A stretch of 64,000 nucleotides of DNA from NCBI RefSeq assembly GCF_030814695.1, contig NZ_JAUSVL010000001.1:2702227-2766226 (forward strand), written 5' to 3'. The notes beneath the pieces were generated by a model. It ran no database searches and was not told the DNA's origin. It saw only the letters and a list, made by a program, of their open reading frames with translations. The position numbers and the translations under genes are program-made. Positions 7,476 through 61,404 of the stretch are shown here, in pieces; position 1 is the first letter of the stretch; every line of letters begins with the position of its first letter. Source of the DNA: Oligosphaera ethanolica (GTDB lineage: Bacteria; Verrucomicrobiota; Lentisphaeria; Oligosphaerales; Oligosphaeraceae).

Positions 7476-8334
7476 CGGACGGAGCAGACGGAGCGGACGG
7501 AGCAGACGGAGCAGACGGAGCAGACGGAGCAGACGGAGCGGACGGAGCGGACGGAGCAGACGGAGCAGACGGAGCGGTCGGAGCAGACGGGGCAGACGGA
7601 GCGGACGGAGCAGACGGAGCAGACGGAGCGGACGGAGCGGACGGAGCAGACGGAGCAGACGGAGCAGTCGGAGCGGACGGAGCAGACGGAGCAGACGGAG
7701 CAGACGGAGCGGACGGAGCGGACGGAGCGGTCGGAGCGGACGGAGCGGTCGGAGCGGACGGAGCAGACGGAGCAGACGGAGCAGACGGAGCAGACGGAGC
7801 GGACGGAGCGGACGGAGCAGACGGAGCGGACGGAGCGGACGGAGCAGACGGAGCAGACGGAGCAGACGGAGCAGACGGAGCGGACGGAGCGGACGGAGCA
7901 GACGGAGCGGACGGAGCGGACGGAGCAGACGGAGCAGACGGAGCAGACGGAGCGGACGGAGCGGACGGAGCAGACGGAGCAGACGGAGCAGACGGAGCGG
8001 ACGGAGCGGACGGAGCAGACGGAGCAGACGGAGCGGACGGAGCGGTCGGAGCAGACGGAGCAGACGGAGCGGACGGAGCAGACGGAGCGGTCGGAGCGGA
8101 CGGAGCAGACGGAGCAGACGGAGCAGACGGAGCAGACGGAGCGGTCGGAGCGGACGGAGCAGACGGAGCAGACGGAGCAGACGGAGCAGACGGAGCGGTC
8201 GAAGCGGACGGAGCAGACGGAGCAGACGGAGCGGTCGAAGCAGACGGAGCAGACGGAGCGGTCGGAGCGGACGGAGCAGACGGAGCAGACGGAGCAGACG
8301 GAGCAGACGGAGCAGACGGAGCAGACGGAGCGGA
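7476..8334. repeat. 859-bp minisatellite of 9-bp units
   Basis: About 95 uninterrupted copies of the 9-mer CGGAGCAGA, CGGAGCGGA or CGGAGCGGT; only the last two or three bases vary. Because the period is 9, all six frames stay open and give long Ser-Ala-Pro, Arg-Ser-Gly or Val-Cys-Ser 'proteins', which are artefacts. It abuts the three-hairpin repeat that follows. Confidence 0.97.
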
Positions 8335-8338
8335 TTCC

Positions 8339-8452
8339 GCCAAGTTCGGCCCGGAGGGCCGGACTATGCATAACCCCGGGTGAGGCGCCCGGAGGGCGCC
8401 GCAACCCGGGGTATGACAGCAACCTAGAATTGCGCCCGGAGGGCGCCACATT
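8339..8452 (+). repeat. Three-hairpin repeat element, copy 1 (forward)
   Basis: In this orientation the element runs GCCAAGTT, hairpin H3 (CGGCCC-GGA-GGGCCG), CATGCAT, large nested hairpin H2 (core GGCGCCC-GGA-GGGCGCC within CCCCGGGT/ACCCGGGG), a variable linker, then hairpin H1 (GCGCCC-GGA-GGGCGC) and CACATT. It lies 14 bp upstream of the IS200-like transposase gene, with H1 next to the gene. Confidence 0.92.
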
Positions 8453-8465
8453 GGGGGACACCATC

Positions 8466-8918
8466 ATGAGTTACACGCGACTGATGTACCACATTGTCTT
8501 TCGAACGAAAAGGAGCATCCCCGCCCTATCGGTTGAGCACGAAACATCATTTTACTCCTATGTGTGGGGAATAATCAAAAATAAGAAATCCGTCTTGTAT
8601 CGCATTGGTGGTATGCCAGACCACGTGCATATTCTGATAGATTTGCATCCCTCACTGTCACTGTCAGATTTCATACGAGAGATGAAGACAGCAACCAATG
8701 GTTGGCTGAAAGATCACCACCAAGAATTCCCGCTTTTTATCGGGTGGGGAGACGGATACGCAGCTTTTTCCTACAGTTTGTCAGAAAAAGACGCAATAAT
8801 TAACTACATCATCAACCAAAAAGAGCATCATAAGACCGTAAGTTTTGCTGAGGAATATCGACAATTCATTGTCGCAAATGGGTGTGAAGTCGACGAACGA
8901 TTTTTTCTCAATGACTGA
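8466..8918 (+). CDS. tnpA: IS200/IS605-like tyrosine (HUH-Y1) transposase, REP-associated type
   Basis: A single-domain 150-residue Y1 transposase that cuts and joins single-stranded DNA at hairpin ends. The metal-binding HUH motif is His53-Val-His55 (GMPDHVHILIDL) and the nucleophile is Tyr114 in INYIINQKEHH. The length is normal and the gene looks intact. It has no TnpB partner. The ATG at 8466 fits the family start; the upstream extension of the frame is repeat sequence. The gene is clearly AT-richer than its surroundings and is flanked by inverted copies of the three-hairpin repeat (8339-8452 and 8948-9065), the arrangement expected for a REP-associated tyrosine transposase and its substrates. 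Confidence 0.93.
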   Translation: MSYTRLMYHIVFRTKRSIPALSVEHETSFYSYVWGIIKNKKSVLYRIGGMPDHVHILIDLHPSLSLSDFIREMKTATNGWLKDHHQEFPLFIGWGDGYAAFSYSLSEKDAIINYIINQKEHHKTVSFAEEYRQFIVANGCEVDERFFLND

Positions 8919-8947
8919 TTCCCGCTTTTTTGCCGAATGTCTACTCC

Positions 8948-9615
8948 AATGTGGCGCCCTCCGGGCGCTAATTTGAGGGGGGGAGCCTCTACCCCGGGTT
9001 GCGGCGCCCTCCGGGCGCCTCACCCGGGGTTATGCATGGTCCGGCCCTCCGGGCCGAACTTGGCCGATCTGTCCGACCCGACCGATCAGTCCGCGAAAAA
9101 AGACAGTCGACCCGACCGAGCCACCTGAGAAAATGTGGCGCCCTCCGGGCGCTAATTTGAGGGGGGAGCCTCCACCCCGGGTTGCGGCGCCCTCCGGGCG
9201 CCTCACCCGGGGTTATGCATGGTCCGGCCCTCCGGGCCGAACTTGGCCGATCTGTCCGACCCGACCGATCAGTCCGCGAAAAAAGACAGTCGACCCGACC
9301 GAGCCACCTGAGAAAATGTGGCGCCCTCCGGGCGCTAATTTGAGGGGGGGAGCCTCTACCCCGGGTTGCGGCGCCCTCCGGGCGCCTCACCCGGGGTTAT
9401 GCATGGTCCGGCCCTCCGGGCCGAACTTGGCCGATCTGTCCGACCCGACCGATCAGTCCGCGAAAAAAGACAGTCGGCCCGACCGAGCCACCTGAGAAAA
9501 TGTGGCGCCCTCCGGGCGCTAATTTGAGGGGGGAGCCTCTACCCCGGGTTGCGGCGCCCTCCGGGCGCCTCACCCGGGGTTATGCATGGTCCGGCCCTCC
9601 GGGCCGAACTTGGCC
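8948..9615 (-). repeat. Tandem array of four three-hairpin elements (copies 2-5)
   Basis: Four copies in reverse orientation start at 8948, 9132, 9315 and 9499, giving a 183-184 bp period; the only length change is in a run of G in the linker. Each element (about 117 bp) is followed by a ~66-bp spacer beginning GATCTGTCCGACCCGACC. The four units are almost identical, so the array is recent. Confidence 0.95.
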
Positions 9616-9826
9616 GATCTGTCCGTTCTATCCAATCAGGCCGAATGGGCAGGGCGTCCGCAAGCGGCGCCCTACAGGCGCGCCCGTGCCCACCGTGGCA
9701 GTAATGAATGATCGGGACATTGCAATTTTCTTGATATGTTGTTATCCTATCTCTGTTCGTCTCCGCATTGTGTGGTGGGGCGTCACTCTTACAGAACGGT
9801 GTCAGTTATAGGAAAGGGCCACGACC

Positions 9827-22003: not shown

Positions 22004-22117
22004 GCCAAGTTCGGCCCGAAGGGCCGCACCACGCATAGCCCCGGGTGAGGCGCCCGGAGGGCACCGCAACCCGGGGTAGGACAACAACATAGAATTGCGC
22101 CCGGAGGGCGCCACATT
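22004..22117 (+). repeat. Three-hairpin repeat element, copy 6
   Basis: Forward orientation, with H3, H2 and H1 conserved except for a GGCCCGAAGGGCC loop variant. The linker reads AGGACAACAACATAGAATT as in the reverse copy at 25675. Confidence 0.92.
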
Positions 22118-22137
22118 GAAAGGCCAGGAGTGTGTCC

Positions 22138-25674: not shown

Positions 25675-25789
25675 AATGTGGCGCCCTCCGGGCGCAATTC
25701 TATGTTGTTGTCCTACCCCGGGTTGCGGCGCCCTCCGGGCGCCTCACCCGGGGCTATGCATGGTGCGGCCCTCCGGGCCGAACTTGGCC
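25675..25789 (-). repeat. Three-hairpin repeat element, copy 7
   Basis: Reverse orientation, starting AATGTGGCGCCC and ending GAACTTGGCC. Its H3 side continues into three ~34-bp repeats of GCCGATCTGTCTGGCGTCCT up to 25870. Confidence 0.92.
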
Positions 25790-31461: not shown

Positions 31462-31575
31462 GCCAAGTTCGGCCCAGAGGGCCGGACCATGCATAGCCCC
31501 GGGTGAGGCGCCCGGAGGGCGCCGCAACCCGGGGTATGACAGCAATTTAGAATTGCGCCCGGAGGGCGCCACATT
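31462..31575 (+). repeat. Three-hairpin repeat element, copy 8
   Basis: Forward orientation; the linker reads TATGACAGCAATTTAGAATT, identical to the copies at 33943 and 36191. Confidence 0.92.
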
Positions 31576-31990
31576 GGCCTTCCCCCACGCCCGTCTCCCG
31601 TCCTGCCCCGCGCGCTCCTATCCCGTCCGTGGTGCGGGCGTCCTGCCCCCGCCGTCGCGCGCCACGGCATGCCGTGGCGCTACTGAGTTTGGCGCTCTGC
31701 GCCCTGCGCCCCTCTCCCGGCCGTGGTGCGGGCGCGCCCGTCTCCCGTCCTGCCGTCCTGCCGCGGCGCCCCTCTCCCGGCCGTGGAGTGGGCGTCTCGC
31801 CCACTCCGACAAGACGGCTCATTTCCCGCACTCGTCATCCACGCCGACCGTACCTGGCCCGTTTCCCGGCCGTGGTGCGGGCGTCCTGCCCGCACCGTCG
31901 CGCGCCACGGCATGCCGTGGCGCTACTGAGTTTGGCGCGTTGCCCCGCACGCCCATCTCCCGTCCTGCCGCGGCGCCGCCTCCGTCCGTC
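31576..31990. repeat. GC-rich palindromic repeat block, copy 1
   Basis: Made of recurring pieces: CCCGTCTCCCGGCCGTGG, GTGGGCGTCTCGCCCAC (hairpin) with CGACAAGACGGCTCATTTCC, CATCCACGCCGACCGTACC and CCACGGCATGCCGTGG. The same pieces in other orders fill 34060-34340, 36305-36540 and 37400-38360. Frames reading through it are spurious. Confidence 0.85.
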
Positions 31991-33942: not shown

Positions 33943-34056
33943 GCCAAGTTCGGCCCAGAGGGCCGGACCATGCATAGCCCCGGGTGAGGCGCCCGGAGGG
34001 CGCCGCAACCCGGGGTATGACAGCAATTTAGAATTGCGCCCGGAGGGCGCCACATT
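33943..34056 (+). repeat. Three-hairpin repeat element, copy 9
   Basis: Forward orientation, almost identical to copy 8. It continues the direct-repeat block into the GC-rich part (34057-34340). Confidence 0.92.
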
Positions 34057-34340
34057 GGCCTTCCCCCATGCCCGTCTCCCGTCCTGCCGCGCGCGCCCCT
34101 ATCCCGGCCGTGGAGTGGGCGTCTCGCCCACTCCGACAAGACGGCTCATTTCCCGCACTCGTCATCCACGCCGACCGTACCTGGCCCGTCTCCCGGCCGT
34201 GGAGTGGGCGTCCTGCCCCCGCCGTCGCGCGCCACGGCATGCCGTGGCGCTACTGAGTTTGGCGCGTTACGCCCCGCGCCCGTCTCCCGGCCGTGGTGCG
34301 GGCGCGCCCGTCTCCCGTCCTGTTGCGCCGTCTTTTTCCC
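34057..34340. repeat. GC-rich palindromic repeat block, copy 2
   Basis: Shorter version of 31576-31990: GTGGGCGTCTCGCCCAC, CATCCACGCCGACCGTACC and CCACGGCATGCCGTGG in the same order. Confidence 0.85.
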
Positions 34341-35654: not shown

Positions 35655-35965
35655 CCCAGGGCAAGCGACGCCGAAGGCGGCGCGTCGCCCTGGGTAAGCC
35701 CCCCGTCAGAAGCAAGCCCTGTAGGGGCGACCTAAAAGGGCGACCTAAAAGACCATCGACGATGCCTCGCAGCGCGCAATACTGCAGCAGTCAATGAGTT
35801 CCATTGCCTCTTTGGCCCCAGTCAGCTGCGCCGACTGGGGCCAAAGAGGCCGAGGAACACGGCCATAATGGGCGCGCTACCCAGGGCGGCGCGCGCTTTC
35901 AGCGCTGCTTGCCCTGGGCTATCATATTTCGCGCTTTCAGCGCTTCTGCCGCTTCGCGGCGAGGG
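35590..35965. repeat. Palindromic repeat cluster
   Basis: Two GTCCCGGCGGCATT modules, then two inverted copies of a module with GCCCAGGGCAAGCG and CGCCCTGGGTAAGC arms (35655-35700 and 35875-35925), and GCCCCAGTC/GACTGGGGC arms at 35817-35845. The same set occurs at 17835-18005. No gene is supported. Confidence 0.75.
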
Positions 35966-36190: not shown

Positions 36191-36304
36191 GCCAAGTTCG
36201 GCCCGGAGGGCCGGACCATGCATAACCCCGGGTGAGGCGCCCGGAGGGCGCCGCAACCCGGGGTATGACAGCAATTTAGAATTGCGCCCGGAGGGCGCCA
36301 CATT
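36191..36304 (+). repeat. Three-hairpin repeat element, copy 10
   Basis: Forward orientation, H1-H3 intact. It is followed to about 36540 by a rearranged piece of the GC-rich block (CCCGTCTCCCG, GTGCGGGCGTCCCGCCCGCAC). Confidence 0.92.
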
Positions 36305-36552
36305 GCCCCTGGCCCCGCGCCCGTCTCCCGCCCCGCGCCCGTCTCCCGTCCTCCCGCCGCGGCGCACATATCGCGGCCGTGGTGCGGGCGTCCCGCCCGC
36401 ACCGTCGCATGGGGCCAGCTCCTTACACGACATTCGAGCGGCAACCCGCAAACGTTCCCCGGTTCCGCCCCACGCCCGTCTCCCGTCCTGCCTAGCACGC
36501 CCGTCTCCCGTCCTGCCTTGCGCGGTGTCGCCTGCCACATCAAGTGGCCACA

Positions 36553-44682: not shown

Positions 44683-45549
44683 ATGAAAGGCATTGTTTTA
44701 GCGGGTGGCGCCGGTACGCGTTTGCATCCGATTACTTGTGGGGTGTCAAAACAACTTCTGGCCGTCTATGACAAGCCAATGATTTACTATCCAATATCGG
44801 TCCTGATGCTGGCTGGTATCAGAGAAATATTGATTATTACGACACCAGAAGATCAGGCGAGTTTCAAACGACTACTTGGCGATGGTTCACGTTTTGGAGT
44901 CGTGTTTACGTATGCCGTTCAACCACGACCAGAGGGCCTGGCGCAGGCGTTCATTATCGGCGAGGAGTTCATTGGTGCGGATTCCGTGGCCTTAGTGCTG
45001 GGCGACAATATTTTTTATGGTGCGAACCTGGGTGATATTTGCACGCAAGCGGCTGCCCAGCCGAATGGCGCGACGGTTTTTGGATACTATGTATCTGATC
45101 CAGAACGTTTTGGCGTAGTAGAGTTCGATGAGAACCACATGGCCATCTCCATTGAAGAGAAGCCTGTTCGTCCCAAATCGCACTACGCTGTAACGGGATT
45201 GTATTTTTATGACAATGATGTGGTGGGCATTGCCAAACAGATCAAACCGTCCGCACGTGGTGAATTAGAAATCACATCGGTCAATAATGAATACCTGAAA
45301 CGCGGTGATCTCCGAGTGGAGCGTCTTGGCCGCGGTTATGCGTGGTTGGACACCGGCACACATGACGCCATGCTGGACGCCGCAAACTTTATTCGTACCA
45401 TTGAAACTCGCCAGGGGCAGCAAGTGGCCTGCTTGCAGGAAATTGCCTATGAGAATGGGTGGATGTCCAAGGAACAAGTACGTGAAAGCATTAAGGACCT
45501 GCTAAAGACAGAATACGGTCAATATCTCATGCGCTTGATAGGAGAGTAA
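44683..45549 (+). CDS. rfbA: Glucose-1-phosphate thymidylyltransferase (first copy)
   Basis: The first enzyme of dTDP-L-rhamnose synthesis, making dTDP-glucose from dTTP and glucose 1-phosphate. The 288 residues start [20 protein letters not shown], the nucleotide loop, with [44 protein letters not shown] and [17 protein letters not shown]. The ATG at 44683 follows AGAGAAGG. It is followed by rfbC (9 bp) and rfbD, so an operon. Codon use is AT-richer than in rfbC/rfbD and than in the second rfbA at 58932, so this copy probably came with the glycosyltransferases. Confidence 0.96.
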
Positions 45550-47272: not shown

Positions 47273-47386
47273 GTGTGGCGCCCTCCGGGCGCAATTTTGA
47301 GTGAGGGCTTTACCCCGGGTTGCGTCGCCCTCCGGGCGCCTCACCCGGGGTTATGCATGGTCCGGCCCTCTGGGCCGAACTTGGCC
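47273..47386 (-). repeat. Three-hairpin repeat element, copy 11
   Basis: Reverse orientation; the linker reads AATTTTGAGTGAGGGCTTT. The loop of H3 is TCT instead of TCC. Confidence 0.9.
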
Positions 47387-49942: not shown

Positions 49943-50057
49943 AGTGTGGCGCCCTCCGGGCGCAATTTTAACTTGTTATCATACCCCGGGTTGCGGCGCC
50001 CTCCGGGCGCCTCACCCGGGGTTATGTATGGTGCGGCCCTCCGGGCCGAACTTGGCC
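49943..50057 (-). repeat. Three-hairpin repeat element, copy 12
   Basis: Reverse orientation; linker AATTTTAACTTGTTATCATA. H1-H3 intact. Confidence 0.92.
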
Positions 50058-58931: not shown

Positions 58932-59795
58932 ATGAAAGGCATAGTGTTGGCTGGGGGAGCGGGTACGCGGTTGCATCCGGTTACGCTCGGGGTGTCGAAG
59001 CAGCTGCTGGCAGTGTATGACAAGCCGATGGTGTATTATCCGCTTAGCGTGCTGATGCTGGCGGGTATCCGGGACATACTGGTGATTACGACGCCGGAAG
59101 ACCAGGCGAGTTTTCAGCGGCTGCTAGGCGACGGCGCGGGCTTCGGCGTGCGGCTGAGCTACGCGGTGCAGCCAGAACCGAAGGGGCTGGCGCAGGCGTT
59201 CATTATCGGCGCCGAGTTCATTGGCCGGGACCGCGTGGCGATGGTGCTCGGCGATAATATCTTCTACGGCGCGAATCTGCCGGCGATGCTCAGCGCCGCC
59301 GCCGCGCGCGAACAGGGCGCGACGGTATTCGGGTATTATGTGCGGGACCCGGAGCGCTTCGGCGTGGTGGAGTTCGACGACGCGGGGCGCGCGGTGTCGA
59401 TTGAGGAAAAGCCGGCAGAACCGAAGTCGCACTACGCGGTGACGGGGCTGTACTTCTATGACAATGATGTGGTGGCAATCGCGCGGGACGTGAAGCCGTC
59501 GGCGCGCGGCGAGCTGGAAATCACGGCGGTGAATAACGCCTATCTGCAACGCGGGGCGCTGCAGGTGGAACGGCTGGGGCGCGGATACGCGTGGCTGGAT
59601 ACGGGGACGCACGAGAGTATGCTCGACGCGGCGAATTTTATCCGGACGATTGAGACGCGGCAGGGGCTGCAGGTGGCATGTCTGCAGGAAATTGCGTGGC
59701 AGAAGGGGTGGATGTCGCGCGAGGAGGTGATGGTGGCTATCAAGGATATGCTTAAGACCGACTACGGGCAATATCTGCTGCGGCTGGTGAAATAA
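58932..59795 (+). CDS. rfbA: Glucose-1-phosphate thymidylyltransferase (second copy)
   Basis: Same activity as the gene at 44683. The 287 residues start [20 protein letters not shown], with [53 protein letters not shown] and [17 protein letters not shown]. The proteins are clearly close, yet this gene is GC-rich with mostly G/C third positions, unlike the AT-richer first copy. An ATG two codons upstream (58926) is possible, but AAGGAAGG spacing favours 58932. This is probably the native copy, split from rfbB by the IS66 nest. Confidence 0.95.
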
Positions 59796-61096: not shown

Positions 61097-61289
61097 ATAG
61101 GTCGCAATCTGGGTGAATGAATGACGCTTAAGCGACTTTTCAGAGTAGCTGATGAATATAAAGTTGCTGAGGCAGAAATCAAGGTGAAAAAATGTGGGAC
61201 GGAGGACGGGGGGAGGTAAGCGGTCAGTTATTGATATTGGATGCACGGCATGCCTCACTCTACCGCGGTGAGACGAGACGTATCTGACC

Positions 61290-61404
61290 AATGTGGCGCC
61301 CTCCGGGCGCAATTTTAAATTGTTGTCATACCCCTGGTTGCGGCGCCCTCCGGGCGCCTCACCAGGGGTTATGCATGGTCCGGCCCTCCGGGCCGAACTT
61401 GGCC
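61290..61404 (-). repeat. Three-hairpin repeat element, copy 13
   Basis: Reverse orientation. H2 has compensating changes: the outer arms read CCCCTGGT / ACCAGGGG instead of CCCCGGGT / ACCCGGGG, keeping the stem paired. Confidence 0.92.

Follow-up and report, generated by a model that had tools for sequence, protein, structure and literature searches.

Class 2 REPtrons, in which REP sequences are paired with a TnpA_REP (RAYT) transposase, combine a single-copy Y1 gene with inverted flanking hairpin repeats that are also dispersed intergenically; they have a tetranucleotide at the 5' foot of the hairpin and several unit families per genome. The system described here shares all of these features, but its transposase carries Y---Q--HH, not Y---NP, and falls short of the REP_Tyr_transpos model, and its repeat comprises three hairpins over ~116 bp with the tag RTA(A/G) instead of GT[AG]G. 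IS608 and ISDra2 (IS200/IS605, subclass 1.1) have the same HUH/Tyr core and fold and a similarly short protein without extra domains; the present system departs from them in that its flanks are homologous and inverted, tnpA copies are few and many unit copies lack the gene. The enzyme also resembles the TnpA_Y1 proteins that Quentin et al. (2018, PMC6006769) classify as subclass 1.2 in length, in its DHVH and YIxNQKEHH motifs, in low copy number and in its prevalence among Bacteroidetes. That classification lists "no" REP for subclass 1.2 and states that it does not share IS properties, whereas we observe inverted tagged hairpin units at most tested loci and a range extending to Pasteurellaceae and others. 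Non-GTAG hairpins with dispersed copies likewise flank the Y1 genes of class 3 and subclass 2.6, but their Y motifs differ, the foot in class 3 is CnGA, and the covered text of PMC6006769 does not describe a three-hairpin unit for them. REPIN/BIME composites and MITEs, finally, resemble some elements found here in that two inverted units form a larger repeat, in some cases with terminal inverted repeats (TIRs) and a target duplication; the difference is that here the two inverted units come from different families (e.g. A with B).

The DNA analysed is a 64-kb stretch of the Oligosphaera ethanolica chromosome (the window). Its tnpA gene, assigned by Pfam, NCBIfam, alignment and AlphaFold2/Foldseek to a 150-aa Y1 HUH transposase of the subclass 1.2 type, lies at 8466-8918 on the forward strand. 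Upstream, on the same strand, BLAST and folding place a three-hairpin unit at 8339-8454 (H1 8343-8365, H2 8373-8412, H3 8432-8446), which ends 12 nt before the tnpA ATG and thus lies in the probable 5' UTR; it is abutted by a 9-bp tandem array of GACGGAGCA (~95 copies, 7478-8331, forward strand). Downstream, four units on the reverse strand, inverted relative to the upstream one, form a 183-bp tandem array (8948-9625), the first at 8946-9064 with H3 nearest the gene and the other three within 9132-9614 (9132-9247, 9315-9431 and 9499-9614). This is the REPtron arrangement, a tnpA between inverted copies of a genome-dispersed repeat. The sequence-only reading had placed the gene between two inverted copies with H1 facing it on both sides. 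The inversion holds, but the downstream side carries four copies, and the hairpin that faces the gene is H3 when the hairpins are numbered 5' to 3' along the 8339 copy (the earlier numbering may differ). The SDR and prepilin genes adjoining tnpA were not found in the close relative G002, so that this genome provides no empty site for the tnpA locus. Abundant units in a genome that lacks a related Y1 gene would, by the sequence-only reading, speak against it; in G002, an 85%-complete MAG that is ~84-98% identical in the compared flanks, many units but no close tnpA were detected, a limited indication at that completeness.

The tnpA product matches Pfam Y1_Tnp (PF01797, E=1.8e-23). H53, H55 and Y114 are invariant in 10 relatives, as are Q118, H121 and H122 within its motifs DHVH and YIINQKEHH, and the intact Y1 transposase with HVH53-55 and Tyr114 recognised earlier is thereby confirmed. 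Its earlier designation as REP-type has to be abandoned: the protein scores 21.5 bits against NCBIfam REP_Tyr_transpos (cutoff 80) and has Y---Q instead of Y---NP, which rules out a class 2 REP-associated tyrosine transposase. It passes the NCBIfam IS200 model (64.6 bits, cutoff 55), and its AlphaFold2 model (pLDDT 89) is closest in Foldseek to IS608/ISDra2 TnpA (E=1e-8), followed by TnpA_REP 4er8 (2e-5). Three Y1 genes are present in the genome, with tnpA in single copy and the next best at 32% identity; the multiple near-identical tnpA copies of subclass 1.1 are absent. Members of subclass 1.2 measure about 148 aa, carry Y---Q--HH and DH[IV]H and occur as few, dissimilar copies per genome; TnpA fits this subclass by motif, by its length of 150 aa and by low copy number, a placement inferred from the motif.

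The unit occurs 13 times in the window (BLAST, 112-119 bp, 88-100% identity to 8339-8454), each copy with three hairpins whose loops are GGA (or TCC), in agreement with the earlier count of 13 three-hairpin elements. Besides the five copies around tnpA, dispersed units were located by BLAST on the forward strand at 22004-22118, 31462-31577, 33943-34058 and 36191-36305, and on the reverse strand at 25675-25788, 47274-47385 (followed by 41-bp repeats containing H1), 49945-50056 and 61288-61403, the last inside a long composite form, in which terminal inverted repeats enclose two inverted units. The hairpin core GCCCGGAGGGC has 36 matches in the window against 0.13 expected in shuffles. A genome-wide count, which had been proposed as a check, gives 154 copies of the core of the central hairpin H2 in the 5.73-Mb chromosome at up to 3 mismatches, and the reversed core gives 0 matches over the chromosome under the same limit; chromosome-wide repeat work beyond these core counts covered 2.06 Mb of sampled sequence. 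Read from 5' to 3', the order within the unit is H1, then a linker whose last bases are TGCATAA, then the long H2, which encloses an inner hairpin, and last H3. In the upstream copy TGCATAA (8367-8373, forward strand) stands directly 5' of the G+C stem of H2; we read it as an RTAA tag from the sequence and from the enrichment of RTAR near relatives. Across 63 distinct copies in the O. ethanolica genome pairing in the outer stem of H2 reaches 97.8%, compared with 92% in shuffles, and the stem shows 23 doubly compensated cells against a shuffle maximum of 10, while the same test on these copies reveals no clear covariation in H1 or H3. Sampled copies are intergenic in 61 of 65 cases and, judged with a crude gene caller, show no preferred orientation relative to flanking genes; Rfam has no family covering the unit. 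Nor does the unit have the form of a canonical REP, a single hairpin of 20-65 nt with GT[AG]G at its 5' foot: its tag is ATAA on H2 inside a three-hairpin unit, and relatives show GTAA and GTAG variants. Elsewhere in the window we noted an Acido-Lenti-1 RNA (Rfam RF01687, 47 bits, 35880-35944, forward strand) and a pair of long direct repeats at 44683-45447 and 58932-59696 (14.2 kb apart, 73-75% identical), probably paralogous genes.

Is the pairing of such an enzyme with such a repeat peculiar to this locus? Relatives from the same family, order or class (40-59% identity) mostly have inverted flanking units, unlike in sequence and similar in layout; the exceptions are the G055 relative, which sits in a direct array, and the G006 relative, whose upstream sequence is too short to judge. 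GTDB genomes were scanned as well, and 80 further loci were retained, mostly from Bacteroidota, with others from Pasteurellaceae, Kiritimatiellota, Cloacimonadota and Calditrichota. When the upstream flank was aligned with the reverse-complemented downstream flank (score at least 40), inverted homologous flanks were found at 57 of the 80, compared with 3/240 cross-locus and 1/68 far-flank controls. The IS200 control loci, fetched with a query that served solely for this purpose, gave 1/38, or 1/11 after removal of redundancy. These relatives from other groups and those of the same class strongly uphold the earlier suggestion of a transposase-repeat system, in the sense of a partnership, and leave movement of the unit by the transposase a hypothesis. 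RTAR stands directly 5' of strong hairpins in 46/267 cases near the relatives' genes and in 2/62 far from them (p=0.003), with 9/267 on the opposite strand near the genes, and near the gene the strand of the unit carries 66 matches to TGNRTARCC, in 35 of the 80 loci, against 23 on the opposite strand and 11 in far flanks with both strands summed. In the complete genome of Actinobacillus genomosp. 2, five of the eight CTATGCNTAACC matches fall within 1.8 kb around tnpA, with ~0.9 expected genome-wide (a hand calculation that assumes equal base frequencies). High unit copy number is confined to some genomes; Chryseobacterium ZHDP1 has 10 matches, and Pasteurellaceae have a few. The sequence-only reading had also held that transposase genes elsewhere in this genome lacking the flanking unit would speak against it. 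Two such Y1 genes exist (L032 and L033); they are only 32% identical to tnpA, and each has hairpin units of other families beside it, on one side or both. A GTAG tag is borne by one of these multi-hairpin units, and the L032-type unit C was located at 60 separate sites of the sampled sequence, 41 of them with the sense of the window unit.

Many units are embedded in larger structures. Among 82 classified copies, 25 belong to the long form, in which a unit of another family (A) lies next to the first in inverted orientation, and 31 have the right arm only; in G001, a member of the same genus, tnpA is flanked by unit A. The TIR of the composite form is GTAATCGGTCAGTGATTGATAA, and sampled sequence contains eight strictly matched TIR pairs, six with the unit inside and two without. 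Their 8-bp flanks match in all eight, five in register (0-2 mismatches) and three shifted by one base as read from the printed flanks, so that the composite form displays both features of a MITE, TIRs and a target-site duplication. In the informative comparisons with a close relative, the unit belongs either to a TIR element with target duplication or to an array of 9-bp repeats. At L191, G002 has a single CTCGGGGC, whereas in the present genome the element is bracketed by two CTCGGGGC copies, a perfect duplication; three other core copies lie inside 9-bp GATCCGTCC-type arrays whose counterparts in G002 lack the core, sites at which target duplication cannot be judged. Related 9-bp arrays adjoin several other units, and one site has a single composite in this genome and two in G002 (L079/L082 versus L112), a case of local amplification. 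Given the composites with TIRs and ~8-bp target duplications, another (TIR) transposase also spreads the units.

We favour the interpretation, with a probability of roughly 0.72, that the unit is a REP-like cognate repeat of a subclass 1.2 TnpA and that tnpA with its inverted flanking units constitutes a REPtron-like locus. In its favour stand the inverted flanks at 57/80 loci, the shared layout despite unrelated sequence in related genomes, the tag enrichment, the matches gathered around tnpA in Actinobacillus genomosp. 2, the compensatory changes in H2, the fold and the replichore polarity described below. Counting against it are the missing covariation in H1 and H3, the restriction of high copy number to some genomes, the TIR composites, which account for part of the spread without a Y1 enzyme, the units of G002, and, within the polarity data, the strand on which the tag lies, the unpolarised unit A and the other polarised repeat families. 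The match to the IS200 model, the closest folds being those of IS608 and ISDra2, and the few clustered copies in some genomes might instead point to an autonomous IS200-like element, with the two flanking units as its ends and the dispersed units as decayed or internally deleted copies. One tnpA copy faces 154 unit cores, however, the flanks are inverted copies of one unit, an arrangement seen at 1/38 IS200 controls, and subclass 1.2 is published as not sharing IS properties (PMC6006769); such an element is improbable. It is also unlikely, if somewhat less so, that the units spread only in MITE-like TIR composites through a DDE-type transposase, the unit by tnpA being that gene's regulatory 5' and 3' hairpin DNA. 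The matching 8-bp flanks of all eight strict TIR pairs, direct or shifted by one base, the empty site in G002 with its perfect CTCGGGGC duplication and the 25 long-form and 31 right-arm copies are what this view explains well, but units also occur outside composites, in the tandem array at tnpA, in 9-bp arrays and as dispersed copies in the window, and tnpA is paired with units in other phyla too, where the unit sequences are unrelated.

A primarily RNA-level or chromosome-structural role, as terminators, mRNA stabilisers or regulator-binding hairpins with GGA loops that stand beside tnpA by chance, would agree with the strong hairpins, the GGA loops and the intergenic position of 61/65 sampled copies. 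We consider it very improbable given the absence of an orientation preference relative to flanking genes and of an Rfam family, and an inverted-pair association with tnpA far above controls; secondary roles of this kind are possible. Under the preferred REPtron-like interpretation, TnpA would bind the unit in single-stranded form, the probable contact being H2 together with the RTA(A/G) tag 5' of it, and Tyr114 would cut and rejoin it at replication forks, so that the enzyme would mobilise or prune the units. The units would in addition travel as passengers in TIR composites, moved by another transposase with ~8-bp target duplications.

The distribution of the units between the strands is strongly uneven. 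By GC skew the origin lies near 2.05 Mb and the terminus near 5.05 Mb, and the three 16S genes (2.50, 2.88 and 3.81 Mb), all on the forward strand, agree with the inferred origin. A simple rule, reverse strand from 2.05 to 5.05 Mb and forward strand elsewhere, describes 90 of the 100 listed unit copies, and 68 of 76 after clustering (p=6e-13). It holds for 31/31 right-arm and 18/25 long-form copies and, among core-only copies, for 12/12 outside and 7/12 inside the window, a split read from the classification rows. Gene orientation was ruled out as the cause, called genes being divided 50/50 between strands (crude gene caller), and the idea of a generic selection against inverted repeats was dropped, since the sister unit A of the same genome is unpolarised (10/20). 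With GC skew of contigs as the replichore proxy, 7/8 longer contigs of G006 agree in sense, as do 10/14 over all contigs, the latter not significant (p=0.18). As candidates for a complete second genome in the polarity test, the G055/G052 pattern yielded one match, Chryseobacterium ZHDP1 only 10 and a Bacteroidetes pattern almost none, which is why the G006 contigs were used.

Other intergenic repeat families of this genome are polarised as well (TTATCCACAGATTACGCAGATTAACGCAGATT 59/70, CTCACGCGAAGGCGCGAAG 84/93 and the GCGGCATGTCTTGCCGC hairpin 52/58; L087-L186), so that polarity by itself is weak evidence for a Y1 enzyme and, with unit A unpolarised, does not identify a mechanism. The strand rule places the tagged strand on the leading-strand template. 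Since IS200/IS605 enzymes are described in PMC6006769 as acting on the lagging-strand template, simple IS608-like insertion of the tagged strand predicts a polarity opposite to the one observed, and strand-selective loss of exposed tagged strands may be involved instead. A bolder proposal would make subclass 1.2 wholly a group of REPtron enzymes acting on multi-hairpin RTA(A/G)-tagged units, and would attribute the polarity in this genome to removal by TnpA of units whose tagged strand is exposed on the lagging-strand template; we offer it tentatively and consider it rather doubtful.

The Y1 locus of O. ethanolica thus bears on a subclass published as neither IS nor REP-associated, which appears to gain a recognisable DNA partner with a shared tag at most tested loci. 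A REPtron-like system for this orphan subclass is new with respect to the literature covered, and a prior description outside it is possible. REPtron-like systems would accordingly extend to Bacteroidota, Pasteurellaceae and the lineage of O. ethanolica, and a poorly understood Y1 subclass would acquire a defined candidate substrate. The strong polarity of one unit family, in turn, offers a natural trace of insertions or losses coupled to replication.
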